Below, piece by piece: positions 1 to 20,216 of a stretch of 24,068 bases of DNA. The notes under the pieces were generated by a model. It did no database searches. It was not told the DNA's origin and worked only from the letters and a program-made list of their open reading frames with translations. This DNA comes from a virus, in the IMG/VR virus record IMGVR_UViG_3300025889_000936, positions 1 through 24,068 of that record, one strand, 5' to 3'. Each line of letters begins with the position of its first letter. The first letter of the stretch is position 1. The translations under genes were made by a program, and so were the position numbers.

Positions 1-1883
1 AACTCTCGGCTAGATCCTCCAACAACAATAGCGTCGGCTTGATTTTCTGATGTGACGTTTCCAAACTCAGAGAATACAGTATTAATGTAGTCATTAGGAT
101 ATTTTCCAACATCTTGTAGCTCTCCAGCAGTAGCCCAAGTAGCAACATCCCAATCGGGATAAGCTGGGATAGAAAATCCTGTTCTACTGTAGCCGTATTT
201 TTGTCTAATGAATTCCTTTACTGCTTGCTCGCTTTCGTTTCCTTGTATCGGATCATTTCCGAAAGCAGTCCTGTAGAAGTCGAAAAGGGCACCCTCAGGG
301 CCAAAGTTCCAACCCCCAAAAACATATCCGGCAGCTACAGTTCTAATACCTGTAGGTAAACCTTCTTCTTCAACGACCTCTAGAGAGTTTATCCTCCCAT
401 TAAACTCATCGTACTGTCTCTTTAGTTCATAATCCATCTGGCCCTTGCCTACGGCGGGATTAGCTAAAGATAGCTGAGGCATTGCAGCCGCAATACCTGC
501 TCGCTCATTGTATGTTAGTTCTGCTGTTCTGAAAAGGGGTCTAATGTCAATAACATCCGTCGTAGAAATCACAGACCCTGTATTGCTGACCCAAACATAA
601 GCTACCGGAAGAATGGACTGCCCAACTAATTCATAAGCGGTGCTCTCCAATTTCTCAGTGATCAAGGGTGCTATGTTTAAAATGTCATCGGGCGAAGGAA
701 AACTTCCTCTGATGTCGTAAGCTATATCGTTAGCCGAAGCTGCGGTGAATCCCATGTTTTCGTTCGCCGCGTCCCCAGGAGAAGCTAGTATTTTGTGGTC
801 TGTCCCTGTTCCCTCCATGTACTCTTCTTCATAATTAGGAGTGCCCGCAAAGTTTGCTCTTAGACCAGCCCCCCGAACAATTCCTAATGTGGGAGTGGTA
901 ATAGTTTCCTTTCCCGTCCCCTTTAGTATCGTAACAGAACTAGCATCAACGGGTTTACTGTAAATGAAAACCATGTCAATTCTGTTTAAAACATTGTCCA
1001 CCTGCACTCGGTTTCCGTTCTCGTCTGTATAGGAAAAATCAGTCTCATCGAAGGCCGGGACTTCGATTGAAAGCTCCTCTGGAATGTCTACTATAGAAGT
1101 TCTGCTGACACCCCTCCAAGTTTTTACGAAGAAACTTTCTGTCCTCGGTAGTGATGCGAATCCATCGACAGGCGAAGTAAAATCATAAGTAGGTAAAAGG
1201 ACTCTATCCGCAGAGTTAAACCTAGACTTTGCCCAAATCAAAGCCTCCGTAATAACCATTGGTGCTATAGAGGCTGCGGCACCTGACCCTGTGCCACCGT
1301 ACCCTAAAGCGTTAGAGTCGCTTTGCGAGCTTACCTGTGCCCCTTCAGGTCGATTAACGGGGTAGTCAGGAGTTATTACAGGCCAAGTGAAAGCTCTCTC
1401 GGCTAAACCATTTGCACCTAAAGCATCTTGACTCAGGTTACTTTTAAATTTATTTATTGTTTGCTCTAAAAAGTAGTTCGCTCCATTTGTGGACAACATT
1501 CCCGTAACGAAGCCTCCGGGGTTCGGCAGGGCTGCTTCCCAAGTATCTATCTCACCTACTTCGTCACCTAAAATTCTTCTTAGGTAACCTAAAGGGCGTT
1601 TGTTACTAAGATCATTTATTCTAGCAGAGTACCTGCCAGGATTAACTCGAACTAAACGGTCCCCACCCGTAGCATAGGGCCTAAGTTCATCAATGTCGGC
1701 TCGCTTGACGTTACTAATTTTAATAACGTCTCTTCTAATTTGATCTTTTAGCCACAAGCAGTTTTCTTGTAGCTGCTTTAAAGGAATGTTATCTACCTCA
1801 AAATAGTATGGATCATTTTCTTTAAACATCCTTACCGGATCGGTAAATCTGTAAACACTTTCGTTGTAAACTTGTTCTGCCAT
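1..1883 (-). CDS. Partial large virion (baseplate or fibre) structural protein, C-terminus cut by window edge
   Basis: About 627 codons are open from the ATG at 1883 to the left edge with no stop, so the 3' end lies outside. The ATG shares one base with the stop of the gene before it (TAATG). A good GAGGG ribosome site sits 7 bases upstream, which fixes the start. Residues 26-45 carry a Y-Y-F-E-V-D-N-I-P-L-x-x-L-Q-E pattern that recurs near the N-terminus of the adjacent beta-helix protein (5323-1883). Later there is an N-R-I-D-M-V-F-I-Y stretch (about residue 300) and, in the C-terminal third, an I-D-I-R-P-L-F-R-T segment followed by Y-N-E-R-A-G-I. I see no catalytic motif, signal peptide or membrane segment. 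Position at the distal end of the baseplate cluster suggests a peripheral baseplate or fibre-attachment protein. That role is inferred; I cannot name the family. Confidence 0.72.
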   Translation of the reverse strand, partial: MAEQVYNESVYRFTDPVRMFKENDPYYFEVDNIPLKQLQENCLWLKDQIRRDVIKISNVKRADIDELRPYATGGDRLVRVNPGRYSARINDLSNKRPLGYLRRILGDEVGEIDTWEAALPNPGGFVTGMLSTNGANYFLEQTINKFKSNLSQDALGANGLAERAFTWPVITPDYPVNRPEGAQVSSQSDSNALGYGGTGSGAAASIAPMVITEALIWAKSRFNSADRVLLPTYDFTSPVDGFASLPRTESFFVKTWRGVSRTSIVDIPEELSIEVPAFDETDFSYTDENGNRVQVDNVLNRIDMVFIYSKPVDASSVTILKGTGKETITTPTLGIVRGAGLRANFAGTPNYEEEYMEGTGTDHKILASPGDAANENMGFTAASANDIAYDIRGSFPSPDDILNIAPLITEKLESTAYELVGQSILPVAYVWVSNTGSVISTTDVIDIRPLFRTAELTYNERAGIAAAMPQLSLANPAVGKGQMDYELKRQYDEFNGRINSLEVVEEEGLPTGIRTVAAGYVFGGWNFGPEGALFDFYRTAFGNDPIQGNESEQAVKEFIRQKYGYSRTGFSIPAYPDWDVATWATAGELQDVGKYPNDYINTVFSEFGNVTSENQADAIVVGGSSRE

Positions 1884-4800
1884 TAGTTGTCCCTCGATAA
1901 ATCAAATATGGTAGCCGACTTAAATCCACCTATATCGTCCCCTGGGTAAGTATCAGAATTTCTACCTAACCCAGCGTTGTAAATTGTTGTTTTCTTTGGT
2001 CTTCCCGCAAGACCTATACTTGCATTTCTAGAATTTGCAAACGTGTCAGCCGCAGATTCATCCAGAATACATTGCATGGGATTTTCTTCTAGCATTTCAT
2101 TACAGTAATAAAATCCTGAAGTCCATAGCTTTTCGTTAACTCCATCTCCGCTCTCATCAATGCTTTGCTTTATCAAGTCCGGTGCTACAGAGCTTGCGTT
2201 CGATGCTCCTACGGGAGGTAAAGCAGAAAGACCCGCTGAACAGTTGTACCCTTGAGCAAACACTTGATATGCTGGGCCTAGAACCCCGGAGAAGTTTCCG
2301 CCGTGAGGATATCCCCCTTCTGTAAATCCGCTCAAGTCACATAATAATAACTTAGCACTTGCTTTTGGTGACCAATAAATTCTAAAGAACCCTCTGTTAT
2401 TATAGGCTCCGCTAACACCAAAGAATAGAGTATCTAAACCACTAACATTTATTCCCGCTTGCGATAGTGCAGAAGCTGCTTCAGGAGATAATGATCCCTC
2501 CCCAGAAATAGGGAAGTATCGGTCGAACGGCTGATTAATATCAACTCCCGAAGGTGGCACCCACACAGCACTACCTTGGCCGAAGGCATCAAGGATGCTG
2601 AGTGTGCCCGTGTCAGGAGTTCCTGCGGGAGCGCCTGAGGCAGGGACCTCTCCACCAGCACCGTCTGAGGAAGCCCACAACGCGCTTGGTCCATGTTGAA
2701 GGGAGTCCGCAGGGTGCGTACCACTTAATGATAAGTAGGAAGCGTTCATTCTTGAGGTGTCTGCGACATTCCAGATGTTAAATCTCTCACAAAGATCGCC
2801 ACTAGAATCGTACACTAGTCCATCAGCAGGGCTATCATTTGGAGGGAATGGGAAGTGAACATTTCTAGCATTAACTACACTATCTTGAACAACTCTAAGA
2901 CATACCCCCCCAGCCCCAATAGCTAAAGCACCCGCGTAATTTGGAGTTCCTAAATTTCTATCCACTAGGAGTGCGTTAATTTGATCTACTGAGGTTACAG
3001 ACAGTGGTGCCGTAAACGTCGCTGTGTTCAAAGAAGAAGTAGAAATGGCATCCGCATCCTGAGGGTTTGCATAAAATTGCATTGACCCCCCGGAAACAAT
3101 ACTGCTATATGGTAGAGGATAGTCTACGCCGTCGTCCAAGGCAGAAAGACCAAAATCGGTGCTCTCCCAGTTTTTGGCGTAAGCTCCTAGATCTTTCATG
3201 TTGACAATACTGTTCTTGTTTGCAACTATGCACGCTCTAGTAGAATGCAGTTCTACAGAAGTATGATTTTGGCTACTGCTTAGTTCAAAAGAACTCTCGT
3301 CTGGTATAGAGAGGCCATCAAGTCTTCTAGGCTCAAAGTTTATTACAGAGTTTTCCTCAGCAAGAACGTCTACTCCTGCTTGGGAGATAGCAGTAGGTCC
3401 GTGGAAGTTTACTGTTGAGTTTGCTTGAGCACATACTGCGGCTAAATTCTTTTGGGCTAAGTAAGTTGCTGGTCCAATGACGGATGTGGCACCGTTACCC
3501 GCCCCGTTAAATGTAATAACAGAGTTGTTTTCTGCTTTGGCCGCTCGACCGTAAACGGCTCTACTGTCCACAGAAGAGTCCGTGACATTTATGTGAGCTT
3601 TAACTAAATCTGCGTTAGAGTTATCTTTAGCTACCAAGGCAGGAGTTCCACTAAAAGCGTTTCTAAAGAAGCTATTTCCGTAAAGTGTAGGAACTCTATC
3701 TTTTATTTCGAACCCGAAGCTAGTCGATTTTCTGAGGTCTAAGTGTACGGCGTTTCCAGAAAGATCCAACTGTCTTCTAAAAGACGCATCGTCTAGGTCG
3801 GCCGCGGAGTCATAAGTAAAGGATGCGTTATCACCCAGTATGCCTTGTTTTTGACTAGCATCTACAGTTAGATTTTCATAAATAAAGTGAGAACCTTCGG
3901 ATTTTATTCCCGTGGAGTTTCCGTAAACGTCAACCAATCCGTTAAGATTTACTTGAGAAGATCTTAGGGTTATGCCTTCCTGAGTGTTTAGTTCTGCACA
4001 AACGATACCTCCGGTGGTAGCGTCCGAGGAAGAAGTTCGTTTAACTCCCCCACCCAACTTTGAATTTTCTAAAACAAATCCTTGTGTGTTCCTGGAAGCA
4101 ACAATCACAGCATCTCTACCTTCAGCGCCAGAATCCCCAACTTCAGTTGAAGTAAGGTCTAGGATTCTAGAACTGACCGTAACGTCACTGTTAAGAAGGT
4201 GATACCCGATTCCTTGGTTCTCTATCCTAGAACTAACGTCAGTAGGATCAATTTCGTAATTTCTGTAAGAGAACGCAGATCTGGAGAGAGTTACTTCCGA
4301 GTTGCTGAATTTAAATCCTGCCTTCTTGGCTCTTACGGCTGTGCAGTTTTCCAAAAGAACTTTAGAGTTAATTACTTCTATCGCAACGTCGGAATTTTGA
4401 TTAGCATCAGAAAAGAAATTTCTAATGTAAATAGGCCCGTCACAGTTTTGAACACTTATTTTTGTACAAGCATTCCCATAGAAGTTTCCTCCAACTAAGT
4501 TATCCCCAGTTCCTGTGGTAGTTACGCTACTCCGACGTAGTGGGGCAAGTGTAACAGTATTTGTTGAGCTAATATCATTATCACTTATAGTAGCATCTGT
4601 AGTAAAGTTTTCGAAAACGCTAGTAAAGAACCTGTTAGTTCCTGCTCCGAAAGTGCCCGCCCTCTTGTAACTTACTGCTAGAGGGGCTCTTCGCTGTACA
4701 TGAGAGGGATACAAAACAAAGTTAGCTTCAGTTAGTCGAGCGTCAGCGCCTCCATCAAAAACGGTACTTGATATATGTACACAGGACGTATCAGCTAAGG

Positions 4801-5323
4801 TGTTACTCAGATCAAGGGAACTAAGGCTAGTAGGAGTTTGGTGCGTTTGATTATAGTTAGGCGTCCCTACTGAAGGAGCTACTGAAGATGCGTTGAATAC
4901 TCTAGAGAAATTTCTGTTTATAATTTCTATGGAGCCACCCTCCTCTATCCTAAAGTTATGAAGCTCTAAGGGACCTAAATCCCCAAAGTTAGCCACTTCT
5001 ACAAGAACAGGAAATCTAACCACCTTTGGTATGGCAGCTATAGCAGAGCTAACATCTGTGAATATATTATTGTTCTGATCTAAGGTAGCTTGAGGGGTAT
5101 CAGCAGAAACAGTTAGAGCTAGACCTGGAACTCCTGCGGAAGTAGCAAACCCAGCCTGTTCCCAAAGCTCGTAAGTTCTTTCTTCCAAGTCATAAAGAGG
5201 GACGTTATCCTGCTCCCAATTGTAGAAGGTACTAGTATCAAACTTAGACACATAAGGCGTCCAAGAATTAAATAGCATTACGTCTCCGCTGCTTGTGTAT
5301 ATGTCGTCTTTGTTAAATGCCAT
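1883..5323 (-). CDS. Large predicted beta-helix tail fibre or tailspike protein (1146 aa)
   Basis: Residues 36-54 hold W-E-Q-D-N-V-P-L-x-x-L-E-E, matching the N-terminus of the next gene downstream and probably a baseplate-docking segment. From about residue 120 to 830 the protein is rich in short Asn/Ser/Val repeats of the type N-S-x-[V/I]-N-[F/M/A] (for example near 600, 636, 658, 704 and 815), spaced irregularly as in right-handed parallel beta-helices of the pectin-lyase type. The last 250 residues are Gly/Ser/aromatic-rich and could form a receptor-binding or trimerisation tip. No polysaccharide-degrading active site can be identified. The start ATG follows the upstream stop after one base (TGATATG), with only a weak, distant Shine-Dalgarno-like sequence. 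Fibre or tailspike is well supported by composition and position; whether it is enzymatic is unknown. Confidence 0.75.
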   Translation of the reverse strand: MAFNKDDIYTSSGDVMLFNSWTPYVSKFDTSTFYNWEQDNVPLYDLEERTYELWEQAGFATSAGVPGLALTVSADTPQATLDQNNNIFTDVSSAIAAIPKVVRFPVLVEVANFGDLGPLELHNFRIEEGGSIEIINRNFSRVFNASSVAPSVGTPNYNQTHQTPTSLSSLDLSNTLADTSCVHISSTVFDGGADARLTEANFVLYPSHVQRRAPLAVSYKRAGTFGAGTNRFFTSVFENFTTDATISDNDISSTNTVTLAPLRRSSVTTTGTGDNLVGGNFYGNACTKISVQNCDGPIYIRNFFSDANQNSDVAIEVINSKVLLENCTAVRAKKAGFKFSNSEVTLSRSAFSYRNYEIDPTDVSSRIENQGIGYHLLNSDVTVSSRILDLTSTEVGDSGAEGRDAVIVASRNTQGFVLENSKLGGGVKRTSSSDATTGGIVCAELNTQEGITLRSSQVNLNGLVDVYGNSTGIKSEGSHFIYENLTVDASQKQGILGDNASFTYDSAADLDDASFRRQLDLSGNAVHLDLRKSTSFGFEIKDRVPTLYGNSFFRNAFSGTPALVAKDNSNADLVKAHINVTDSSVDSRAVYGRAAKAENNSVITFNGAGNGATSVIGPATYLAQKNLAAVCAQANSTVNFHGPTAISQAGVDVLAEENSVINFEPRRLDGLSIPDESSFELSSSQNHTSVELHSTRACIVANKNSIVNMKDLGAYAKNWESTDFGLSALDDGVDYPLPYSSIVSGGSMQFYANPQDADAISTSSLNTATFTAPLSVTSVDQINALLVDRNLGTPNYAGALAIGAGGVCLRVVQDSVVNARNVHFPFPPNDSPADGLVYDSSGDLCERFNIWNVADTSRMNASYLSLSGTHPADSLQHGPSALWASSDGAGGEVPASGAPAGTPDTGTLSILDAFGQGSAVWVPPSGVDINQPFDRYFPISGEGSLSPEAASALSQAGINVSGLDTLFFGVSGAYNNRGFFRIYWSPKASAKLLLCDLSGFTEGGYPHGGNFSGVLGPAYQVFAQGYNCSAGLSALPPVGASNASSVAPDLIKQSIDESGDGVNEKLWTSGFYYCNEMLEENPMQCILDESAADTFANSRNASIGLAGRPKKTTIYNAGLGRNSDTYPGDDIGGFKSATIFDLSRDN

Positions 5324-5324
5324 A

Positions 5325-5930
5325 TCAGAAGTTTATTGTCCACCTAAAGATTAAACTAAAATCATTAGTTTTTACGATATTACTAAATGTTCTGTAACAC
5401 ACCAGGATTGGCCTGTCCTGAGCCGCGCCTGTAGGGTTCTTCATGAACATGCCAATCTCATTTATTCCTCGGTCCTGTCCACCTCTCTGTATATTATTAG
5501 CGGCCTCTTCATCAATAACCAAAGTATACCTAACCGAGTTTTCATTTATTCTAGTCATTTTGCTAGAAGGTATCTCTGCAAACACTCTACCCGGAACCAA
5601 GGAGTCTCCCACTATTTGGCTTCCTTCATATAGAAACAAGTTGCTGCCTGTTCCATATTCGTCGATAGAACTTAACGCTCCCGACAACTCATTTATAGAG
5701 CTAACTATACCTCCAGCAGGAGGCCCAGAGATACCAAGCTGGAATTTTTGTATTTGATAATCAATAACGGTATCCGAACCTGAAGCGGCAAAAAGATAGG
5801 ACAAGCCTACCCCCATACCAGATACGATTATGTTGGAGTCGTCTAAAAGAACTTCCTCCTCACCCGTAGTGCTTTTTTTTATGATTTGAAGGTGGCCTGT
5901 TATGCCTAATTCATCTGTAAAGTTTTTCAT
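5325..5930 (-). CDS. Peripheral virion structural protein, paralogue of its upstream neighbour (201 aa)
   Basis: I place the start at the ATG at 5930, not the in-frame GTG at 5948. The ATG forms an ATGA overlap with the stop of the preceding gene and lies 11 bases after GGAGG, whereas the GTG itself overlaps that GGAGG. From the ATG the protein has 201 residues. The N-terminal part (G-H-L-Q-I-I-K, then D-S-N-I-I-V-S-G-M-G) resembles the N-terminus of the 360-residue protein encoded just before it. Both proteins end in a basic-Trp-x-hydrophobic-x-Phe motif (R-W-T-I-N-F here). A G-x-N-E-I-G-M-F-M segment near residue 155 looks like a beta-structured fibre or collar domain. The family is not recognised with certainty. 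Its place between gp7-like and fibre genes suggests a baseplate-to-fibre connector. Confidence 0.7.
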   Translation of the reverse strand: MKNFTDELGITGHLQIIKKSTTGEEEVLLDDSNIIVSGMGVGLSYLFAASGSDTVIDYQIQKFQLGISGPPAGGIVSSINELSGALSSIDEYGTGSNLFLYEGSQIVGDSLVPGRVFAEIPSSKMTRINENSVRYTLVIDEEAANNIQRGGQDRGINEIGMFMKNPTGAAQDRPILVCYRTFSNIVKTNDFSLIFRWTINF

Positions 5931-7009
5931 AGGAAGTGTAGCCTCCACTTAATAGTTAGATCCTGGTTTCGGGCCTGTACATCTGAAGTTATTGTTAGGT
6001 CCTTGGACACACCTTTCCGACAAAACAGTCTGTACTTTCTAGGATTATCTAGTACACTAAACTCAAAAGGAGGTGTATTTCCAGACAGAAGAGATTTTTT
6101 CATGTCTATAGTCCAAAGACCCATGTGATAAATTCCTCCGAAAAGTTGAAGGAAAGCTAGGTCGTCTTGGGAGAGCGTGGTAGAATACTCAACGATACCG
6201 TTTGAAGAAAAATCAGCATTAGAAGAGGTGGTTAGTCCCACTGTTGTATCTGTTCCTGTTACACTAGTAATGAATCCAGAGACATCCATTGAACTAGCTT
6301 CATTAGGGTAGCTTCCAGTGGTTAAAGTTGTGCCTAAATCTCCTCCCACTTTTCTGTAAACTAGTCTAGACCCAATAGCTCCTTTCTCAGAATTTCCCGC
6401 TGGATAGCTGCCCATTAAACTTCCTACATAAAAGCTAGATAGGGATCCACTCAAAGGCGTTCCCAAAGTAACATATTCTCTAATAGCAGAGGGCATGAAG
6501 TTAACATGCTGCCCATTTCCAGGAAAAAGTGAGCTTATGCTTGTAGGATTTTCTTCATCAAAAAACTGACCGGGAACTGAGCTAATGCTAGTTTCATTTT
6601 CTAGTGCCTCCAACATCGGGTCGGGAGGCACAGGGAAGAGAGTATTTGTTGGATAATACTTATTGGATGCGTCCGCATCATCTCTATTAGCCACTGCTAT
6701 GGTATTAACGCTACCGTTAAGATATAGGTTGTATGCTCCTGGTCCAGAAAGGTAAGAAGCCTTTGTACTGTCAAGCCCTCTCCCAAAACCAATTCCTGAG
6801 AACGCCTCAGCGGCTGTCCCAAAAGATATAGACTGAATAACATAGTTAGAGGCATCTAATATAGCTTGAGTTCCTGGGTCTGATATGGTGCCTAACGAAG
6901 GAGAGACAGTCATTATATCAGCTATTAATTTTCCTGCCCCATCAGTTAGCATATTCGCTTCCTGAAGAACTAACTCATCGCCTCTCCAAACTTCAACTTC
7001 TCCTCTCAT
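5927..7009 (-). CDS. Peripheral virion structural protein, larger paralogue (360 aa)
   Basis: The start ATG at 7009 overlaps the previous stop by one base (TGATG), with GGAG 11 bases upstream. The N-terminus (G-E-V-E-V-W-R, then E-A-N-M-L-T-D-G-A-G) and the C-terminus (K-W-R-L-H-F-L, preceded by a stretch that ends in N-Q-D-L-T-I) align with the 201-residue protein that follows. This one has roughly 150 extra residues in the middle, rich in Ser, Gly, Pro and Asn. No enzymatic motif, signal peptide or membrane segment is visible. The duplicate pair directly after the gp7-like wedge gene suggests that both attach to the wedge periphery, perhaps as fibre adaptors. This role is inferred from order only; the family name is not known to me. 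Confidence 0.7.
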   Translation of the reverse strand: MRGEVEVWRGDELVLQEANMLTDGAGKLIADIMTVSPSLGTISDPGTQAILDASNYVIQSISFGTAAEAFSGIGFGRGLDSTKASYLSGPGAYNLYLNGSVNTIAVANRDDADASNKYYPTNTLFPVPPDPMLEALENETSISSVPGQFFDEENPTSISSLFPGNGQHVNFMPSAIREYVTLGTPLSGSLSSFYVGSLMGSYPAGNSEKGAIGSRLVYRKVGGDLGTTLTTGSYPNEASSMDVSGFITSVTGTDTTVGLTTSSNADFSSNGIVEYSTTLSQDDLAFLQLFGGIYHMGLWTIDMKKSLLSGNTPPFEFSVLDNPRKYRLFCRKGVSKDLTITSDVQARNQDLTIKWRLHFL

Positions 7010-10000
7010 CAGTTCTCAAACTCCACAGAAGTATAATTATCATGAGTGCCCAGCGTATGGACTCCCCACTCTGGCTGGACCCTATAGGAGATTCTACTAC
7101 CTCCACTAACCTCAAGGACACCAGAAGTGATGCTGGCGTCCCTGGACGCTAGATTGGTAGTGTTTTCTCCCGCTCTGTACCCCAACATACCATTATAGAA
7201 ACTTAATATATTAGCAAGCTCTTCTTTACTAAATTCGTATTTAAATTCTGTAACAAACGGTCTTAACGGAATACCGCTAGTTTCCACCCCTATCCCAGTA
7301 GATACTCCTGCCTGATACCTAAGCGTTGTGTCTTCTAGTCCAATAGAATCTATCAGCAGATATTTTTCATAGTTATTGTTTGGTATGAAGAATACTTCAA
7401 TGACATAATTTCTATCCTTGTGTACCTGATCTGTTATCTTAAACTGCTCGTTTGTTTTTGGTATAATGTCAAGATACTCATAGTTATTATGTATAGTAAA
7501 GTTTCTGGTATCGAAATCTATCTTAACATTATGGAAGAAGCTCTCCTTAATATTAGTAAGCCCTAAATCATTTACACTATTGGGGGCGACTTCTTTACTA
7601 TTCAAGCAGTATTCTGTTTCTATCCCAGGATCACTTAAATTGAATGTATACTTATGGCACAGTTTTTGGATAACTTGTTCAATGTTTAGTGTGCTCGCAT
7701 CTGTAGGCGTCCACTTTTTGTCCTCTGTCCAGGACCACATCAATCCGCTAGTCGGCTCCGTGTGAATCCAAACACCGAGTTGTCCACCACCAAGTAAGGG
7801 CTTCCTCTCATCAGCTACCAACGACTTTATATTCAGCGTGAACTTGTGCTGTGGTATTAATTGATTAGGCATTTCTCCATAAGATGAAACGTCAAACCTA
7901 AGGCGAGGTAAACCACCAATAGATTTACATTTTATAACCGGATTATTTATGAAGTAATTCTCCTGACCCCTAACGGAGGCGCTTGAGTCTAAATCTATAA
8001 TCCTAAACTCATTTCTTGAAGGTGCTCCCGAGAGATCGCAAAATTCAATTCCGCTAAGAATTGTGGGATTTCTAAAATCAAAAGATTCCCCTGAGGTATA
8101 AGTTCCTCTCAAAGGAACAACAGCTTGTTCTAGACTACTTCCCACAAAAGTACCAACCCCTCCATCGGACCAAACATTCGTATTATTTATTGGGGTGTTT
8201 GCTCTAAGATTATTTTGTATGAAGTTTGCAGCGTTGACCCCGGATAATTCAAAGTCTCCATTATACAAAGCTTTTCCGAAGACATGTGCAAATATATTTC
8301 CGCCCGTCTTATCTCTGATGTTCTCTCCTAAAACGTGACGCCCAAATCTCTTTGTATAATCAGAGAAAAGATATTGAAACTCCCTTCCAAAGCTGAAGTT
8401 TTCATAGTCTGTGTATGAGTTTATTGTATACCCACTTGCAATCGCAGAGTTAGCAAAACTCTGCACCTGATCCTTCCAGTACATGTCATCACTAAAGGAA
8501 GAGGGAGTAGAATTTATCTGAAGCTCTGAGTATACTCTAGCTAAGTTCTCAAGAGAAGAGTGCATGGACCTAATTATCTTAGGCGTCTGGCCCCTGTCAA
8601 CATATCTAGCTGTGGCCTCAGGGACTTCAGGCATCTTTGCATCAGAGCCTAACTTGTAGACGCCTCTATATGGGAAGGTATTGCTGGTATCTACGCCTGA
8701 AAAGGCTCTAGATGAGTTGGTATCTTCACAAATGTTCCAAACTCCAGACACGTTTCTGTGGTCCTCTACTGGGTGAAACTTTCCAGCGGAAGCTACATAA
8801 CCTAGAGTTAGCTCTCCCAAAGAACTAGGCATGGAGTTTTCTATGACTGAAGGGTCGTAGCTTGTGGGGCCATTAAATCCTGTCCTATCGTAATACCCTT
8901 CTTCGGGTAATAAAAACTTTAAATTTCTTCTTCGTATAGCCCGTCTAGCAGGACCTACAATACTATTAGTTGAACTTAGATCTTCATCTAAAGAATCTAC
9001 TCTGTCCCGCTTAAAAGTTTTGTACCCATCTCTTCCTGGGTCGAAAGGAGAAGATCCAATTAAAACTCCACTAATCTCTGCGTTAGCTAGAACTGTGCCT
9101 GAACTATAACCGACTCTAGTGTCTTGGTCGTCTAAGCCTAAGTAAGAGAATCTTGTGGATGAAGATTCGAAAGTATCGTCAGCACTAGCATTCAAGTTTA
9201 CCTTAGGTATCGTATGAGCAGGAGTAAATTCCTGAGCTACCCTAGCTGTCTCATACAGAGCATACTTTGAGTCCGACTCTAGAGTGTTCTTTCTAAAATT
9301 GAAATCGGTATTATCAAAGTCTAAGAATATATGAGAAGACTTTCCATTCCAAAGACTCAAGACATTCTTTTCGTAGTCCGATATATTCTCTATGACATCC
9401 CCATAGTTCGGAGGAAGCTGTACTGAACTAAAGAACATCAAAAACTCATTAAGTGAATTAATGTTGTCTGTGTCTGTGGCCGCGCTGCTAACCAAGAAAT
9501 CACCCACTTGTTCAGCAAAACCGCCCTCTACCTGGAAACACTTAAGCCTCTCAACTAGTAAATCAACTAAAGGTTTCGTTACAACACATTCCCTATAATA
9601 TTTTACCTCTTCAAAAGGGGGAAGAGGGTAGTTATATTTTGCTCTATAATTAAATACGAAATCGGTATCTCCCTCAAAGAGAAGATAAGTTGGTCGCTCT
9701 TGACCAGCAGGATGGGTGGCACCTGCCATGTAAACACCTTCTCCAAAGGGGCCTGGGCCTACGGCTCGATCCCAAAGTGCAAGCTCCCCAAAGTCACGGG
9801 CTTGGCGCTTGATAGCTAAGTACCCTGGAGCGTCAATCGGGTGCGCGTGCCAAGGCTTCATTTTGGTGTCTCCAAGAACTGTATATAACTCGCCCTTTGT
9901 TCCATCCGGGTTTAAGATATAAAATCTAGGGAACGGAAAGTTCTGTCCGAAATATTTAAAGTTAGTAGGGAACGCTGAAGCTAAATCTAAAAGTATAGAA

Positions 10001-11373
10001 TCTGTAACTAGTTTTAAGTTTTCTTCTAGGCTACTGGTGCTGTACGATATTACTCCTGAGTCTTTTGACGTTTTTAGTGTCCAAGTCTTTAAATTCTTAA
10101 ACAAAGGAGACCCTGACGCTAGAGCATACCAGATAATGAAAGGTAGGTAAGATTCCCACAAGGGAATAATTTTATTATCTATGTCCAGTACACTATCAAC
10201 GATTATGGCATTTAACGCCGACCTCAGAGATTGTTGGGTTCCAGATCTCTTATAAATATCTACCGCTGTTCTAAGTTGATGTCTCCACTTCTCAGACTGA
10301 TTTCCTCGAAGTTTAAACCCGATCAAGTCTGCGATGTACCTAAGCTTTTCCTGCTCCGTATTTTCTATATCGTAAAGATATTTTATATCCTCTACCTGAT
10401 TAGATATATCAGCAAAATGATATCCAAAAGCTGTTAATATCTTCCTGAAAGGACCATCAGAAACTTCGTCTTCTAGCAGTAGCTGTGCATTTAAAAAATC
10501 ATCAAAAGCGGATTTTACCCTAAAGTCCTGCCTGTCAATTGCCAAAGGTGAATAGATAACGTCAATTAATGTTAATAGGTTATCTAGCTTTTGTGTTCCA
10601 CTGGTATAGGTTGCTACTTCTCCTGCGCTTGGATCGCTTATTGCATCCTGTACTCCAGAAAGAAAATCCTGAGGGATGTAACTTCCATAGGAACACGCTT
10701 CAACATTCCTCCAAACAAAATTGGTTAAACCTTTTACTCCATCTACTGTCTCTAAAGTTGCTCCTGTGTAAAGCTTACTAAGATTATCTAATACAAAAGA
10801 AGAAGGAGAATAATCCAGACCGCCTAAAGCTGAAGTGTTTAGAAAGTAAAACCAACCTAAGTTATCTACTAAGTAATTATGAATACTACTTGCGTTAGAG
10901 TCTTCCGTGAATGCGGATAGCTCTGATATATTGTCTTCTATGGTGCCAGGAGTCGTTATACCCGGAGGGATTATTTTGGGCAGTAGGGAAGAAGATAAGA
11001 AAGAAACAAACTCTCCGCTAGTATCGAAATCAGAAAAGTTGGAGCTTAGGGGAAGAAGTATTTTTTGTCGGAAGCTTTGCGTAGTTACTTTTGTTAGTTC
11101 GTTCTGCTTTACAAAATACTGCGAGATTCCCTCTATAGAACTTAGGGAGCTTGTCTGAGAATCCGGTACAGAGGACAATGGCAAGATAGAAGCAATATTA
11201 TCCGCTATATCTAAATGGCTATTTATTACTTTGGATAAAGGATTTATCTCAGTACCACTTAAAGCTAAGTCTTCCTGCTGATATACCTTAGGAGTCAACA
11301 ACTCTAAAAGATCTACAAAATTAGATTTTGAGAACTCTCTAGGGTTCGGAGTATATTTGCTGTTATCTACCAT
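7009..11373 (-). CDS. Baseplate wedge protein, gp7 / P2 gpI-like, enlarged (1454 aa)
   Basis: Residues about 335-395 carry the signature of the P2 gpI family: E-K-L-R-Y-I-A-D-L-I-G-F, then W-R-H-Q-L-R-T-A-V-D-I-Y-K-R-S-G-T and L-R-S-A-L. In contractile tails gpI/gp7 partners with gp6/J and gp25/W to form the core wedge, and those two genes lie immediately upstream here. T4 gp7 is about 1030 residues, so this one is much longer. Residues about 1165-1345 (including G-G-Q-L-G-V-W-I-H-T-E-P) look like a beta-sandwich, but this is only a visual impression. The middle, about 400-1100, has no recognisable domain. The start shares one base with the gp6-like stop (TGATG), and I see no good ribosome site, so translation probably depends on coupling. 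The wedge role is well supported; the extra domains are of unknown use. Confidence 0.82.
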   Translation of the reverse strand: MVDNSKYTPNPREFSKSNFVDLLELLTPKVYQQEDLALSGTEINPLSKVINSHLDIADNIASILPLSSVPDSQTSSLSSIEGISQYFVKQNELTKVTTQSFRQKILLPLSSNFSDFDTSGEFVSFLSSSLLPKIIPPGITTPGTIEDNISELSAFTEDSNASSIHNYLVDNLGWFYFLNTSALGGLDYSPSSFVLDNLSKLYTGATLETVDGVKGLTNFVWRNVEACSYGSYIPQDFLSGVQDAISDPSAGEVATYTSGTQKLDNLLTLIDVIYSPLAIDRQDFRVKSAFDDFLNAQLLLEDEVSDGPFRKILTAFGYHFADISNQVEDIKYLYDIENTEQEKLRYIADLIGFKLRGNQSEKWRHQLRTAVDIYKRSGTQQSLRSALNAIIVDSVLDIDNKIIPLWESYLPFIIWYALASGSPLFKNLKTWTLKTSKDSGVISYSTSSLEENLKLVTDSILLDLASAFPTNFKYFGQNFPFPRFYILNPDGTKGELYTVLGDTKMKPWHAHPIDAPGYLAIKRQARDFGELALWDRAVGPGPFGEGVYMAGATHPAGQERPTYLLFEGDTDFVFNYRAKYNYPLPPFEEVKYYRECVVTKPLVDLLVERLKCFQVEGGFAEQVGDFLVSSAATDTDNINSLNEFLMFFSSVQLPPNYGDVIENISDYEKNVLSLWNGKSSHIFLDFDNTDFNFRKNTLESDSKYALYETARVAQEFTPAHTIPKVNLNASADDTFESSSTRFSYLGLDDQDTRVGYSSGTVLANAEISGVLIGSSPFDPGRDGYKTFKRDRVDSLDEDLSSTNSIVGPARRAIRRRNLKFLLPEEGYYDRTGFNGPTSYDPSVIENSMPSSLGELTLGYVASAGKFHPVEDHRNVSGVWNICEDTNSSRAFSGVDTSNTFPYRGVYKLGSDAKMPEVPEATARYVDRGQTPKIIRSMHSSLENLARVYSELQINSTPSSFSDDMYWKDQVQSFANSAIASGYTINSYTDYENFSFGREFQYLFSDYTKRFGRHVLGENIRDKTGGNIFAHVFGKALYNGDFELSGVNAANFIQNNLRANTPINNTNVWSDGGVGTFVGSSLEQAVVPLRGTYTSGESFDFRNPTILSGIEFCDLSGAPSRNEFRIIDLDSSASVRGQENYFINNPVIKCKSIGGLPRLRFDVSSYGEMPNQLIPQHKFTLNIKSLVADERKPLLGGGQLGVWIHTEPTSGLMWSWTEDKKWTPTDASTLNIEQVIQKLCHKYTFNLSDPGIETEYCLNSKEVAPNSVNDLGLTNIKESFFHNVKIDFDTRNFTIHNNYEYLDIIPKTNEQFKITDQVHKDRNYVIEVFFIPNNNYEKYLLIDSIGLEDTTLRYQAGVSTGIGVETSGIPLRPFVTEFKYEFSKEELANILSFYNGMLGYRAGENTTNLASRDASITSGVLEVSGGSRISYRVQPEWGVHTLGTHDNYTSVEFEN

Positions 11374-12968
11374 CAGGCTAAGTATTCTACGTTAATGATT
11401 AAATTATTTAGTTGAATGATTTCATTAAAATCAATTCTAATATCCTGACCAACATTATCTAGCGTGGAGAATCTGACCTCATCCACCTCAAAAATCTGCC
11501 TGTTTAAATCAGCAACAATAAGATCCTCCCCAAATTCTGTATTGTCAATACTTAGATAGTTTAGAATCTTATTCCTAACTTTAGCCTTGATAGGCTCCTC
11601 ATTTTCTTTTTGCTCTAAATCAATTCTAATCGTACAAACTAAATCCAAGGTTCTGATTAGGCCGTCAACAATAACTATGTCATCCGTAATCATCTTCTTT
11701 TCATTTATAGCGTCAAGAAGCTGAGTTTTAAAGTTACTCGTAGCCCTCTGTAGCTGAATGTCCGAAGCTTTCTCTAGAACATAAATATCTATGGTGTTTG
11801 CGGAAGAGTATGCGTTTCTAGTCGCTGCTGTTGCTTTTCCTAAAGTTCCAAAGGTGCTGATAAAGGTATTAGCAAAAACGGAATAATCTTGTAGAGTTAC
11901 CAGCCTGTCCTGTCTTCTGAAGGTTAGTGGGGCGTACTTCTTAGCGTGCTCTATCGACTCCGCGTTGGCACCTCCTGTAGCCTTAGATGTATTTCTTATA
12001 GTACCTGTATAATTAGTTGCTCCTTTTTGCGCTGTAACTGCTACTGCAAGGGCCTCCTTCTCTATGTTTCCTCTGGTTCCTCCTCCCACTCTATAGGTAA
12101 CCGTATAGGTCGCTGAGTCGGGAGGAGAGATTCCTGCTACTCCAGTGCCTAAAACTACCGTAGCGTTATAGAATTCATCGTAACTAATCTCAAAAATCTT
12201 ATCTGTCGAACCAGATGCGAAGTAAATGCTGTCCACCTCAGTGTAGGCTCCATTTGATTCCTCCGTAGGAGAAGTAATAAATAACTGAATGCTTCCTTCA
12301 ACCACTGGGCCATCTGTAAGAGGAATCGTTTTCTGCCCTTCAGTTGCAGCAAACTCACCGGACTCGACTACTAGAGATCCTTCTTGGAGAACTAAGTTTT
12401 GAAATACATTTTCATTTGTCCCCAACCCCTCAGAAGAAGGGGTTAGGTTTATTTCTGTTGTTGCCCTAGCTTGATCAACCAACCCGTTGACAACCTTGTA
12501 TAAAGTGTATGTGACTTGAGCCCCGTCTTCAGGGGATCTAATCTCAAAAGTTCTCTGGTCTGTAGGGATAGCTATGGAGTCCACTCCTGCTAGATCGTCA
12601 GTAAAAGTTATTTGGGCATCCGCCGCTGCTGAAGTTGGCCCCCGCATCCGCACTCCAATCAACTCTAATAGCTTTTTTACACTTCCTCTCTGGGTTGCTG
12701 TGGCAATAAGGTTTTCGTTTGCTAACATATCAGCCTTCATGGATAAGACAGCACCCATGTAGGCAGCTAGTTCCACAAACATCATACCTAAATCAGATTC
12801 TACAAAATACTTATACTCATCAGGATAAGCCGCCTTTACATAATCAATAAGAGAGTTTCTTAAAGTAAGGAAGTCTGTTGCTGCAAAGTTAATTAAGTCT
12901 GCTCGCCTATTAAGAGCCATAGGGGCTAACTTCATAAAGTCTGAGTTTATTGTACCAGAAAAATTCAT
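11373..12968 (-). CDS. gp6: Baseplate wedge protein, gp6 / baseplate J-like (531 aa)
   Basis: Residues 60-107 show the usual J-family N-terminal pattern: L-G-M-M-F-V-E-L-A-A-Y, then A-D-M-L-A-N-E-N and T-A-T-Q-R-G-S-V-K-K-L, followed by L-I-G-V-R. The C-terminal part has the expected alternating beta/alpha domain (residues about 430-520, with D-L-V-C-T-I-R-I and D-L-N-R-Q-I-F-E-V). Length fits between P2 gpJ (about 300) and T4 gp6 (about 660). In known contractile tails, gp6 dimers form the ring of the inner baseplate together with gp25 and gp7, whose genes flank this one. The ATG overlaps the gp25-like stop by four bases (ATGA), with GAGG 10 bases upstream. No anomaly is seen. Confidence 0.88.
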   Translation of the reverse strand: MNFSGTINSDFMKLAPMALNRRADLINFAATDFLTLRNSLIDYVKAAYPDEYKYFVESDLGMMFVELAAYMGAVLSMKADMLANENLIATATQRGSVKKLLELIGVRMRGPTSAAADAQITFTDDLAGVDSIAIPTDQRTFEIRSPEDGAQVTYTLYKVVNGLVDQARATTEINLTPSSEGLGTNENVFQNLVLQEGSLVVESGEFAATEGQKTIPLTDGPVVEGSIQLFITSPTEESNGAYTEVDSIYFASGSTDKIFEISYDEFYNATVVLGTGVAGISPPDSATYTVTYRVGGGTRGNIEKEALAVAVTAQKGATNYTGTIRNTSKATGGANAESIEHAKKYAPLTFRRQDRLVTLQDYSVFANTFISTFGTLGKATAATRNAYSSANTIDIYVLEKASDIQLQRATSNFKTQLLDAINEKKMITDDIVIVDGLIRTLDLVCTIRIDLEQKENEEPIKAKVRNKILNYLSIDNTEFGEDLIVADLNRQIFEVDEVRFSTLDNVGQDIRIDFNEIIQLNNLIINVEYLA

Positions 12969-13432
12969 TTTATTTTAGCCTCTATATCGAAAACTTCTAG
13001 GTCATCCGTTGTTAGTTGAACCCTCAATACGACCCGAAGTTGGTTTCCTCCAGCGGCATCGTACTCTCCCGTCTCATATACTCCAACCTTTAATAGGTTA
13101 GCTCCTACTATGTAATTTTCAAAAGATACTTGGATAGTATCTTTTATTTGACCAAATAACTCTTTAGTTATCGGTTGAAACAAAAATCTTCTGAGGTTGC
13201 AGCCAAAGTTAGGTAGCATTACACGCTCTCCACGCTCTGTTTTTAATAGCTGAGTGACCGCTTGTCTAATCATTTCTCGACCACTATTCTTTTTAAAAAA
13301 ACCTCCCGACTCTCTATTACGTCCTAACGGAAAAGTAAGTCCATAAATTTCTTGGCGCTTGGCTCTTGGGCCTTGCTCCTCGTATTTTGTTGGTCTTCTT
13401 CCATACCTAGAGACTGTGTTATTCGCTGCCAT
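12965..13432 (-). CDS. gp25: Baseplate wedge subunit, gp25 / P2 gpW-like (155 aa)
   Basis: Residues about 55-155 match the GPW/gp25 family: R-Q-A-V-T-Q-L-L-K-T, then G-E-R-V-M-L-P-N-F-G-C-N-L and F-L-F-Q-P, ending in alternating strands (V-V-L-R-V-Q-L and F-D-I-E-A-K-I-K). T4 gp25 is about 132 residues; the extra 40-50 residues here form a basic N-terminal extension with a G-L-T-F-P-L-G segment. In the baseplate gp25 binds gp6 and links the wedge core to the sheath. The family is sometimes annotated as lysozyme-like, but a structural role is established. The start shares one base with the lectin-protein stop (TAATG) and no clear Shine-Dalgarno is visible, so coupling is likely. Confidence 0.92.
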   Translation of the reverse strand: MAANNTVSRYGRRPTKYEEQGPRAKRQEIYGLTFPLGRNRESGGFFKKNSGREMIRQAVTQLLKTERGERVMLPNFGCNLRRFLFQPITKELFGQIKDTIQVSFENYIVGANLLKVGVYETGEYDAAGGNQLRVVLRVQLTTDDLEVFDIEAKIK

Positions 13433-16125
13433 TATATTCTAATGTTTTTGAAGAAGCCTTGCTGTGCTTCATAGTTCTTTTTAACTTCCGTACTATCTAG
13501 TGGCTTAGAGTAAAATTTCAAGCTTCCTACATGCCCGCGAAGACCGCTGGTAACTCCTCCGCGCTCCCCTCCACCCATGAAGTTTCCGTAGTTGTACATA
13601 CCATCGGTATAACCCCCTCCCACAACCCAGGGAGTGTAGAATGGGTTGAGCAGCGGGCCTTGCTTTAGAACAAACGGTCCATCTACAGATGAGGTAGAGT
13701 ATTCAAAGCTGTTAGGTTTCTTGAAATTAGGGACCGAAGGAGTTTGCTTCGGATCTATACCGAATACTGTAGACAATGCTGAGGTAGCCACCAAGCTCCC
13801 ATCCGCATACATACTTATCTCGTCATTCAGAGGATCACAGGTAATGTCAACAAGAATAAACTCAGAATCTACCTTCCCAAAATCTGTAGCAGATAGATCG
13901 ACCTTCATCTTTAGGAAGTCTGGGTAGTTTGTACACTCGTCTGCATTAACAAAAGACGCCGAAGACAGGTCTCTGGAAATTGTAGGTGCTATGAAGAAAC
14001 TCAAAGAAGATACTGGGTCATTTTCTGAGTTTAGGTTACTGTATCCTACTGGATTAGCTTCTGTGGATTGTTGAGTAATTCTTCTATCTCTAGTGAATCC
14101 ACAAACAAGACCCCTAACAAACTGCTCTCCCCGATCATTAGGCAATAAGTCTAGATCTCTCAATTGGCCTGTATGGTCAACCGAGGAAACTCCCTCCTTT
14201 ACTCCGACATTTTCTGAAGCAAGAAGAACTTTTGTTAGTGACGATGGGCCTCCACTTAACCAACCTTCTTCCCCGTCAGTAATATTGGGAACATGAACCC
14301 AACATTCCATACTGAACCCGGAGGGAGAGTAAGTTAAATCTCGATATTCCTTTGTGTCAGGTAACTTTATGAAACTACCCAACGCTGAAGCTGCCGCAAC
14401 ATCTCCTGTGCCTTTATTTTTTGTTATTCCTTCCAAGTAAGGAATAGCTAAACCCGAAGCAAATATATTTTTCTTTGAACTACCTACCAGTTGAGCATTA
14501 TTATACATATTATCGGTAGCACAGTTCGTGGTTTGGAAATCAATGGAGGAGGGTAGTTCTAAGTTAGTATCTAGGAAGTTATAGATACTAAATAGACCCT
14601 CGGTTACTATGTTATCTGTTAGAGATAAAACAGTTGCCTCGGTATTATCTGTAGAAGAAGGGGCGTAAATAATACTTCCTCGTCCTATGGTAGGAACCTG
14701 AAGATGCTCATACCCTACTGACCCTGCTTTCGGAGATGATCGAACAAACTTTGGGTTTAGGGGTAAAACTATACCGTCTACCTCAGCTTGCTCAAATACC
14801 AATGCCCTTTGCTTTTCTAAATCAACTTGTAAATTATAGTCAGCTAGATAAGAGAAGTCGTTAATTGGCACTTCTCCAGGAGCAAATAAGGGAGATGTTC
14901 TTCCTCCGTAGATTTGAGGCGCTTTTACCGCTACCTCAATCTGCTTCTTTCTTCGATTAATCTTATCGGTATGGTTAGCAATTTCGGAAATAATTAGCTG
15001 CCTTTGATTGATCACGATGGCATCAGTATCTCCGTACTCAGTTATGAATCTTTGTAGATCCGAAGATAGATCAAATACTAATTTGTCTCTCTGCTGTTTT
15101 ACTACTTTTAGGAAATGATCTTCATCGTAGTAAGCTTCCATTCCTAGACTGTCATCAATCCTGTTAGGATCAAATATATTATCAGCAAACTTGTTTAGTG
15201 AGTCTACATCAATCTTTCTACCCTTACCTCCTAAGTTCGGGTCGTAGTCATATCTCCAGCGGTCTCCTGGGGGAACTATCCCAGAGATAGCTAGGAATAC
15301 GGGGTCTAACCCGCCTGACTGAGAATCATAGTAGAGTCCATCCTGTGTCAGTACATACTGTCCGTTAATTGTCTCAGGAGGCCCGAAGGTGAGCCTGAAG
15401 ACATCATCATCTTCTTCCAGCCCAGGATCCGTTACGGGGCCAATGTTGAGTCCGCTTAAGCCAAACTCAGCGTCATCACGGAACACAGGCTCTAGAGAAG
15501 GATCATCTCTTCTTTGTCTAAGTACGGAATTGATTCTAGCCTGAAACTCATCAGCTTGTTTGATAAAGTCTCTAGCTGAATTAGCTGCCGCCATAGTCCC
15601 CGCGAATCGGTCTTCTAGTCGCTGCTGGTTCTCCTCTGGGGTGAGTTGGTTGGCCGCGTACCCAGGATCTTTAGCACTCAAGTAGTCACCGAATTTTCCC
15701 ACACAATCAATAATGGCTTCCACCTGATCTATGGCAGCGTTTACGTTTTGGTAAATTTGTGCTCCAAATTCGGCTAGTCCTTGAACAAGGTTGAGTATCT
15801 CTCCTAGATCACCTAAATCAAAACCAAGCCAACCGTCGTCTAGCTTAAATTGAAAGGTTCCCGTCTCCGTGTCAAAGGTTATAATGCCAGCATCAAGCTG
15901 AAGAATACGAAAAAGTTTAGCCGTTATTTCATTTGCCTTAGCCTTTGCTTGACTAGTGGCAAGATTCATTGATATTAGGATTGGCGTGGGCAGTAAAGCA
16001 AGGACATCCGAAGCCAAATTAAGCATACAGCTAGGCACACCATACGCCATGCCCAAGGCCCCCACAGGGCCTGTGCCTGTTTGACCTTGTGCAGTAAGAA
16101 ATGTATCTAAATCAAATGAAGCCAT
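13432..16125 (-). CDS. Baseplate-associated structural protein with C-terminal LamG-like lectin domain (897 aa)
   Basis: Residues about 580-885 look like a concanavalin-A/LamG fold: G-S-F-I-K-L-P, F-S-M-E-C-W-V-H-V-P, a D-E-I-S-M-Y-A-D-G-S-L-V strand pair and a final G-H-V-G-S-L-K-F-Y-S-K-P-L-D. This order and the final G-x-x-x-x-x-x-F-Y-x-x-x-L-x motif are typical of LamG-type modules in secreted and virion proteins. The N-terminal 200 residues are helical with a hydrophobic patch near 33-54 (L-A-L-L-P-T-P-I-L), and a charged helical stretch lies near 340-400. The gene sits between the central spike and gp25 genes, where T4 and P2 have no such protein, so a baseplate-linked glycan-binding role is inferred. 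The ATG follows the spike stop after one base and has a GGGGGTG upstream. The carbohydrate target is unknown. Confidence 0.78.
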   Translation of the reverse strand: MASFDLDTFLTAQGQTGTGPVGALGMAYGVPSCMLNLASDVLALLPTPILISMNLATSQAKAKANEITAKLFRILQLDAGIITFDTETGTFQFKLDDGWLGFDLGDLGEILNLVQGLAEFGAQIYQNVNAAIDQVEAIIDCVGKFGDYLSAKDPGYAANQLTPEENQQRLEDRFAGTMAAANSARDFIKQADEFQARINSVLRQRRDDPSLEPVFRDDAEFGLSGLNIGPVTDPGLEEDDDVFRLTFGPPETINGQYVLTQDGLYYDSQSGGLDPVFLAISGIVPPGDRWRYDYDPNLGGKGRKIDVDSLNKFADNIFDPNRIDDSLGMEAYYDEDHFLKVVKQQRDKLVFDLSSDLQRFITEYGDTDAIVINQRQLIISEIANHTDKINRRKKQIEVAVKAPQIYGGRTSPLFAPGEVPINDFSYLADYNLQVDLEKQRALVFEQAEVDGIVLPLNPKFVRSSPKAGSVGYEHLQVPTIGRGSIIYAPSSTDNTEATVLSLTDNIVTEGLFSIYNFLDTNLELPSSIDFQTTNCATDNMYNNAQLVGSSKKNIFASGLAIPYLEGITKNKGTGDVAAASALGSFIKLPDTKEYRDLTYSPSGFSMECWVHVPNITDGEEGWLSGGPSSLTKVLLASENVGVKEGVSSVDHTGQLRDLDLLPNDRGEQFVRGLVCGFTRDRRITQQSTEANPVGYSNLNSENDPVSSLSFFIAPTISRDLSSASFVNADECTNYPDFLKMKVDLSATDFGKVDSEFILVDITCDPLNDEISMYADGSLVATSALSTVFGIDPKQTPSVPNFKKPNSFEYSTSSVDGPFVLKQGPLLNPFYTPWVVGGGYTDGMYNYGNFMGGGERGGVTSGLRGHVGSLKFYSKPLDSTEVKKNYEAQQGFFKNIRI

Positions 16126-19911: not shown

Positions 19912-20216
19912 TTTACATTAGGTATTAATATTCTGTCGGCCACCTTAAACCCTTCGTTGGGGTCTGATATAGAGTTAACTAGCATGAGCAGCCACCAGTA
20001 GGCAGGAGTTCCGTAAAATACATTTGAAATCAAGTCAGGTCTATGCTCGTAACCTACAGGAACATAGCCTACCTCATAATTATAGGCATCTTCCAAATTG
20101 CCTATTAGTTTATCGTAAGCAGGTGCGTTATAAATAGTTTTTACTTTTGCATTTCTATGCGTGACTGTATTAGAATCTAAAGCATAGGGGCCTTTTTTAT
20201 CAAATATGTTTTTCAC
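19908..20216 (-). CDS. gp53: Baseplate wedge/hub protein, gp53- or LysM (gpX)-like (102 aa)
   Basis: Residues about 57-100 carry the signature H-R-P-D-L-I-S-N-V-F-Y-G-T-P-A-Y-W-W-L-L, then N-S-I-S-D-P-N-E-G-F and R-I-L-I-P. This R-P-D-x-I-x-x-x-x-Y-G-T-x-x-Y-W-W pattern is typical of T4 gp53 and the related LysM-like P2 gpX. The protein is shorter than T4 gp53 (196) and longer than gpX (67). LysM-like folds in tail proteins usually bind other baseplate parts rather than peptidoglycan. The start is GTG, inside a GTGA overlap with the upstream stop, and an AGGTAGG lies 11 bases before it. Its position next to the hub agrees with the role. Confidence 0.85.
   Translation of the reverse strand: MKNIFDKKGPYALDSNTVTHRNAKVKTIYNAPAYDKLIGNLEDAYNYEVGYVPVGYEHRPDLISNVFYGTPAYWWLLMLVNSISDPNEGFKVADRILIPNVK

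Follow-up and report, generated by a model that had tools for sequence, protein, structure and literature searches.

How do two large proteins with nothing detectable in common along their bodies come to start with the same short motif, and what would that start be for? The question is raised by a stretch of DNA from an uncultured phage, IMG/VR record IMGVR_UViG_3300025889_000936 (positions 1 to 24,068; the whole 24-kilobase (kb) stretch is referred to here as the window), whose minus strand is a contractile-tail baseplate operon according to the family-library matches of the window proteins. Two adjacent genes encode the proteins that we call A and B, and both contain the core Y-x-[W/F]-E-x-D-N-x-P-L-x-x-L-[E/Q]-E within an N-terminal module of about 40 residues. 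We read this module as a reused docking peptide, a 'plug' at the N-terminus of proteins that belong to the baseplate periphery, a reading to which we give a probability of roughly 70%. The features concerned are the following.

3-1883, minus strand: protein A, partial, 627 amino acids (aa) in the window, with a weak resemblance to receptor-binding proteins
1734-1853, minus strand: N-terminal module of A, residues 11-50 (core 1764-1808, residues 26-40)
1883-5323, minus strand: protein B, 1146 aa, right-handed beta-helix, tailspike-like
5153-5269, minus strand: N-terminal module of B, residues 19-57 (core 5180-5224, residues 34-48)

The edge of the window cuts A; the full protein, with 868 aa, is found in contig 3300021364_001626 (loci L003/L141), and the L003 copy is 100% identical to the window A across 627 residues.

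The segment shared by A and B

The core reads Y26-YFEVDNIPLKQLQ-E40 in A (Y26-Y-F-E-V-D-N-I-P-L-K-Q-L-Q-E40) and Y34-NWEQDNVPLYDLE-E48 in B (Y34-N-W-E-Q-D-N-V-P-L-Y-D-L-E-E48). That two adjacent large proteins share an N-terminal motif had been proposed in the first-pass annotation of this sequence, and profile comparisons, conservation and scans confirm it. Of the residue ranges given there, that for A (27-45) begins one residue too late with respect to the core and runs five residues past its end. The module is the best-conserved stretch in both families (55 A and 56 B sequences), with a mean identity over 40 residues of 0.835 in A, against 0.446 for the whole protein, and of 0.832 in B, against 0.515. 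Two of the 829 segments of equal length in A are more conserved than the module and both overlap it, and a stretch starting at residue 443 comes close (0.828 vs 0.835); for B the number is six of 1108, the five best listed all overlapping the module. Pairs were counted once per distinct B sequence, wherever A lies on the same strand within that locus; of the 105 pairs so obtained, 103 have the two genes abutting, with gaps of -7 to 8 bases, the other two gaps being 79 and 81 bases. In 96 of the 105, a homologue of the 207-aa protein encoded beside B in the window lies no more than 600 bases from B, some contigs ending there.

Comparison of the full family alignments with hhalign (55 A vs 56 B) gave the module as the single match, over 40 columns and with values that are weak for profiles of such length (probability 8%, E 0.0045). 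The comparison of module with module gave a probability of 75%, E 2.6e-5 and a score of 29.2, the best of 100 column shuffles of the B module reaching 22.5. When the A and B bodies were compared on their own the probability was 0.2%, with nothing detectable in common outside the module, in line with the earlier statement that the rest of the two proteins differs. The module profile (A4) contains no B sequence; run over 11 window-type records, it gave a second match in ten of them (weak, E 2.4e-4 to 0.0042), and all ten lie at the start of B, nine by coordinates and the tenth in L299. In this last locus (400-3962) the B gene is split, and the B profile matches each of the two resulting open frames (815 and 325 aa).

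An exact DNA scan of viral contigs for [FY]Y-x-WE-x-DN-x-P returned at least 120 stretches. The motif was placed at residues 28-45 of an open reading frame (ORF) in 120 of these 120, and a B body was present in 116 of the 116 ORFs of testable length. When the ORFs of the loci were ranked with the B profile, the 16 best non-B matches were A proteins; an unrelated ORF came next, further A proteins after it, and the best reversed ORF scored 9.0 bits. The A-module profile found as its best non-A matches, from 29.7 bits downward, carriers of a form of the module with DNRPL in its core; B ORFs scored up to 17.7 bits with this profile (median 6.9 bits).

Carriers elsewhere and their bodies

The module belongs to a wider class described by the pattern V-x-[FY]-[FY]-x-x-x-D-P-Y-Y-x-x-[VI]-D-N-[RIL]-P-L. 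At E below 1e-4 the module profile matched 162 ORFs (6511 distinct ORFs from 323 sequences), every match beginning within the first 43 residues. These carriers fall into nine body groups: 115 are A proteins, 27 and 12 form two large DNRPL groups, and eight ORFs are spread over six small groups, two of which are cut pieces resembling each other. A DNA pattern for the DPY...DNRPL form gave 44 stretches in viral contigs, and from a profile scan the best 80 of 243 confirmed stretches were kept, many of them on contigs already seen. Contig 3300036715_002161 (L290), whose 159-aa carrier is taken up below, holds two further carriers of 98 and 141 aa.

All 26 phage records examined match the module profile (best E at or below 1.3e-18; one to three matches per record), which serves as a positive control only, since the records were chosen for carrying the module. 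As a narrow negative control restricted to one phylum, that of one Spirochaetaceae metagenome-assembled genome, none of 149 genomes gave a match at E 1e-4, and on this result the idea of a motif widespread among cellular proteins was rejected. The first-pass annotation had also considered that the motif might be common to unrelated non-fibre proteins; this was not seen in the 149 genomes, yet one carrier is located in a head-neck region. Two or three carriers with unlike bodies lie close together also in L274, its relative L280 and G011, which form a second phage group. The 141-aa carrier in L443 (DPYYWATDNIPLQQL) links the A and DNRPL types; among the sequences collected none was seen that links the B form to the other types.

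The proposal that a reused N-terminal module heads differing bodies holds well beyond the window, and several of the bodies are recognisable as tail fibre or minor tail proteins. In L226 (602 aa) the module is followed by matches to tail-collar fibres and, at the end, by a Peptidase_S74 chaperone part, and the carriers L210 (739 aa) and L223 (324 aa), placed on one contig, have C-terminal ends in minor-tail or tail-fibre families. The 98-aa protein of L443 (13488-13784) consists of the module and a C-terminal piece of about 50 residues that matches 45 cultured-phage records; the 12 matches listed have 40-70% identity and include proteins annotated as tail fibre, tail spike and minor tail proteins, and ORF21 of Acinetobacter phage Loki matches this carrier from residue 21 onward. 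This protein is perhaps a minimal fibre. L235 (865 aa) is a weaker case, its BNR, DUF4183 and glycosylhydrolase matches all lying under the curated cut-offs. Arash-like phages keep the module at a locus next to one conserved helicase gene, on proteins of varying size (304, 310, 324, 378, 392, 602 and 865 aa).

A carrier known as a virion component was reached by searching with 70 residues from the N-terminus of a divergent A relative; the search found gp199 of Salmonella phage Arash together with proteins of the Vibrio phages D69, D181 and D148; seven further records matched by this query were taken as chance. The match to gp199 has 48.5% identity over 33 residues (E 0.01), and a two-sequence comparison of gp199 with the full A gives E 1.8e-6. 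The module of gp199 reads VRYYTNLDPYYVDVDNRPLKDISDN. Outside it, BLAST showed no similarity of gp199 to A and none to B above E 0.2. Arash is described as a myovirus with gp199 present in purified virions by mass spectrometry (70% coverage, 9 unique peptides and 245 spectra in the data reported in PMC10585845). Arash gp199 and its Vibrio homologues carry the module as A does and differ from A in their length of 306-310 aa. Nothing was found at E up to 1 when full-length B and the window part of A were compared with 50,697 cultured phage records; a query with the start of a B relative reached no relative, the L108 locus it led to being unrelated.

The module resembles the N-terminal anchors of phage tailspikes and fibres (Klebsiella phage receptor-binding proteins, CBA120/Ackermannviridae tailspike proteins (TSPs)), where a constant N-terminus joins swappable receptor-binding bodies to the tail. 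Such anchor systems are reported to place several unlike spikes on one virion (PMC8825819, PMC12692247, PMC8262889). It differs from them in size, the TSP4 anchor having 335 residues against about 40, and in that neither A, B nor the module gave a significant profile or PDB sequence match. A constant fibre N-terminus with a variable body is known; unusual here are its shortness and its position at the head of two unlike adjacent proteins. The accessible parts of the literature on Arash, on DNRPL and on fibre N-termini hold no description of the motif. The variable bodies of tail fibres make these proteins difficult to recognise in uncultured phages, and a constant start of about 40 residues would flag receptor-binding proteins from sequence in window-type and Arash-like phages, even two per genome. 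If the module is a plug, it would show how one phage mounts unlike fibres on one kind of socket, and the docking question becomes testable in a cultured phage.

Predicted structures and a candidate socket

No significant match was found for A or B in PHROGs, Pfam, NCBIfam or PDB. PDB sequence searches with A, B and Arash gp199 were empty or returned unrelated entries, and the best PDB match of the module profile (E 0.76) was unrelated. Residues 12-57 of the carrier in L211 weakly match phrog_25677 (77 aa, function not annotated; E 0.005). A Pfam match of B to ISAV_HA (E 0.014) was under the cut-off and was taken as chance.

The AlphaFold2 model of B (predicted local distance difference test (pLDDT) 83.7, predicted template modelling score (pTM) 0.83) is a single-chain parallel beta-helix, a fold of the tailspike type, with matches to Geobacillus virus E2 ORF18 (Z 21.4), CBA120 TSP2 (Z 20.6), the Sf6 tailspike (Z 16.4) and, in Foldseek, the K64-1 phage depolymerase (E 4.9e-5). 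An alginate epimerase/lyase is matched as well (Z 21.2); as the best fold matches of B include such polysaccharide-modifying enzymes, its role as a tailspike is taken from its context. The model of A is of modest quality (pTM 0.45) and contains no beta-helix. Its body weakly resembles TssK (Z 4.8 over 103 residues, root mean square deviation 3.6), although a Z below 8 may merely reflect a common arrangement. In a viral fold library seven of the eight best matches of A carry the name Receptor Binding Protein, with E never below 0.039, and none of the fold searches with A gave a confident match (best E in the Foldseek PDB search 2.0). In both models the helix of the module begins directly after D-N-x-P (residues 35-50 in A, 43-56 in B), and pLDDT falls below 50 at residues 20-32 of A and 17-64 of B.

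From these observations we infer an attachment function, in which an extended aromatic stretch (DPYYxE / SFYxWE) would lead into D-N-x-P, which in turn would start a helix of 14-16 residues (L-x-x-L-x-x-N/R). The peptide would be loosely ordered on the free protein and ordered once bound to a conserved site on the wedge, a behaviour that the low pLDDT predicted for the D-N part of the module would fit. As candidate socket we favour the gp7-like protein, the phrog_5417 protein whose gene comes just after, or both. One type of socket could then carry bodies as unlike as the beta-helix tailspike B, the receptor-binding-protein-like A and the classical fibres seen elsewhere, since a plug that is separate from its body allows unlike bodies to be mounted on one kind of socket. 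A precedent may be found in the TssK trimer, a receptor-binding-protein-like assembly that docks via N-terminal residues on TssG, the counterpart of gp7, as described in PMC6300606 and PMC7291167. Two TssK trimers sit on two TssG loops, and removal of 17 N-terminal residues abolishes binding, according to PMC6300606. The likeness of the A fold to TssK and to the receptor-binding proteins of p2/1358-type siphophages is weak, without a significant sequence or fold match, and membership is not claimed. By analogy, the putative plug might be a widespread one that fits a standard contractile-tail baseplate socket, with two equivalent copies of the socket per wedge in window-type phages, one taking a B trimer and the other an A trimer. 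We consider this arrangement doubtful; if true, one plug sequence would place two unlike receptor-binding proteins, encoded back to back, side by side.

The genes of the window that bear on the socket are listed below.

5325-5948, minus strand: 207-aa phrog_5417 protein (profile match E 8.8e-5), candidate member of the docking site
5927-7009, minus strand: 360-aa protein, probable paralogue of the 207-aa protein by alignment
7009-11373, minus strand: 1454-aa gp7/gpI-like wedge candidate (weak Tail_P2_I match), candidate docking partner
11373-12968, minus strand: baseplate wedge subunit (phrog_219, E 1.2e-38), gp6-like in our reading
12965-13432, minus strand: gp25-like baseplate wedge subunit (GPW_gp25, E 4.1e-12)
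19908-20216, minus strand: small baseplate wedge subunit (phrog_7145, E 1.1e-7), gp53-like in our reading

The PHROG name of both phrog_219 and phrog_7145 is 'baseplate wedge subunit' only, and gp6 and gp53 are our own assignments. With gp6-, gp25- and gp53-like wedge genes in one operon, we read the window as a T4-type baseplate set. It is like the periphery of the T4 baseplate (gp6-gp7 wedge, gp8, gp10) in that wedge genes, the gp25 match included, are followed by genes of peripheral or fibre type; none of the family matches of the window names gp8 or gp10, and that phrog_5417 stands in for gp8 is a guess. The match of Tail_P2_I to the 1454-aa protein (E 0.011, 16.1 bits) is under the Pfam cut-off of 20.6, and the L227 protein at the same gene position passes it (E 9.1e-7, 29.3 bits).

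The order of wedge genes, phrog_5417 and carriers is found in the window, L227, L274/L444 and L443, and in all of these and in Arash the phrog_5417 family comes after the gene at the gp7 position. Outside the window, the phrog_5417 gene is separated from the carrier by one 120-aa gene in L274 and by 2-5 kb in the others, and its E values beside module genes are 9e-18 (L274), 3.8e-10 (L227) and 9.9e-15 (L443). L443 matches all of Arash gp12-gp16, and L444 (gp12-gp14) and L274 (gp14-gp16) cover the same five genes; Arash gp13 matches phrog_6, a baseplate wedge subunit. The L227 proteins at the gp6 and gp7 positions have no match to Arash at E 1e-3 and match phrog_219 and Tail_P2_I, respectively. 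In L227 the phrog_5417 gene and the module gene have between them a gene that looks homing-endonuclease-like by eye (8347-9393).

Matches to phrog_5417 were obtained in 21 of the 26 module-bearing records, with two each in the relatives G015 and G017 and three in G023. The notion of one phrog_5417 protein per carrier was not upheld, records with one phrog_5417 match having two or three carriers. The 207- and 360-aa proteins of the window look like tandem phrog_5417 paralogues; in G015 and G017 the two matches lie near each other, one of them within a far longer open frame.

Arguments against docking, other explanations and remaining genes

Several observations weigh against a docking function or loosen the tie on which it is built. 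The A-B similarity is moderate (best cross-family E 3.5e-4 and 7.8e-4) and the B form is connected to the other modules over some 20-40 columns; scored with the A-module profile, no more than 29 of 130 B ORFs rise above the top reversed ORF (9.9 bits), and the B profile ranks an unrelated 77-aa ORF of L108 among the A proteins. Several carriers have only 98-161 aa. In L290 (3980-4459) a carrier of 159 aa, whose body matches a PHROG with the label head scaffolding, is encoded between a major-head-protein gene and a putative sheath gene. With regard to burial in folded cores, the other objection foreseen in the first-pass annotation, the module helix of A (35-50) has block means of pLDDT of 68-78 and may pack on the body, and B is below 50 at residues 17-64; the low values could also come from poor prediction. 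The carrier gene of Arash is far from its wedge genes (125 kb vs 13-18 kb). Finally, phrog_5417 was not found in 5 of the 26 records (39-78 kb, possibly fragments) and its profile also matches 3 of 14 control cellular genomes, so that co-occurrence alone proves little.

The limited similarity of the two modules might reflect convergence of two separate peptides on one site instead of common descent, which we hold to be unlikely. The overlap of A4 with B covers just 16-23 profile columns in the record scan (22 in hhalign), B has no D-P ahead of the aromatic residues and the majority of individual B sequences score no higher than the reversed control, all of which convergence would accommodate; it agrees poorly with the same place in the protein, the same helix register and a module score above all 100 shuffles. 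The 141-aa carrier of L443 bridges the A and DNRPL types, with no intermediate towards B among the sequences seen. Even a convergent origin would imply the same function in docking.

That the fibre uses the module for its own trimerisation or folding registration, with no attachment to another protein, seems about as improbable. The near-invariant D, P, N and P and the aromatic residues ahead of the helix make no coiled-coil pattern, and the same class heads bodies as unlike as a beta-helix and a 98-aa protein; trimerisation and docking could, however, coexist. The short, highly conserved N-terminal peptide, partly of low confidence in the models and found in one carrier away from the baseplate genes, would also suit a tag recognised by an assembly chaperone or a signal for targeting or processing, dispensable or removed after the virion is built. 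We judge this quite improbable, no common small chaperone gene having been noticed beside all carriers, although no systematic search was made. Very improbable is that A and B arose by duplication of one gene and then diverged, their start remaining recognisable without having a separate role: adjacency, fixed order and the same N-terminal segment would agree with it, but the bodies lack profile similarity (probability 0.2%), B is modelled as a beta-helix and A, at pTM 0.45, is not, and it leaves unexplained why the N-terminus is best conserved and why the class heads fibres in other phages.

Docking by a reused attachment module, as the first-pass annotation had suggested, remains the preferred reading, and a few further genes around its carriers deserve mention. 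Within the window, an 897-aa protein (13432-16125) sits between the spike-like and gp25-like genes; it has no Pfam match and no PHROG match below E 0.26, and its C-terminus looks LamG/concanavalin-like by eye. In the L003 relative, head protease (phrog_207) and major head protein (phrog_138) genes follow A. The gene after A (L003 6327-9560, L015 12518-15265, L020 12578-16807) encodes a protein of 915-1409 aa with a Pro-rich start, without a PHROG match for the L003 copy, and in L020 it is followed by the gene of a PAAR-type protein of 99 aa.

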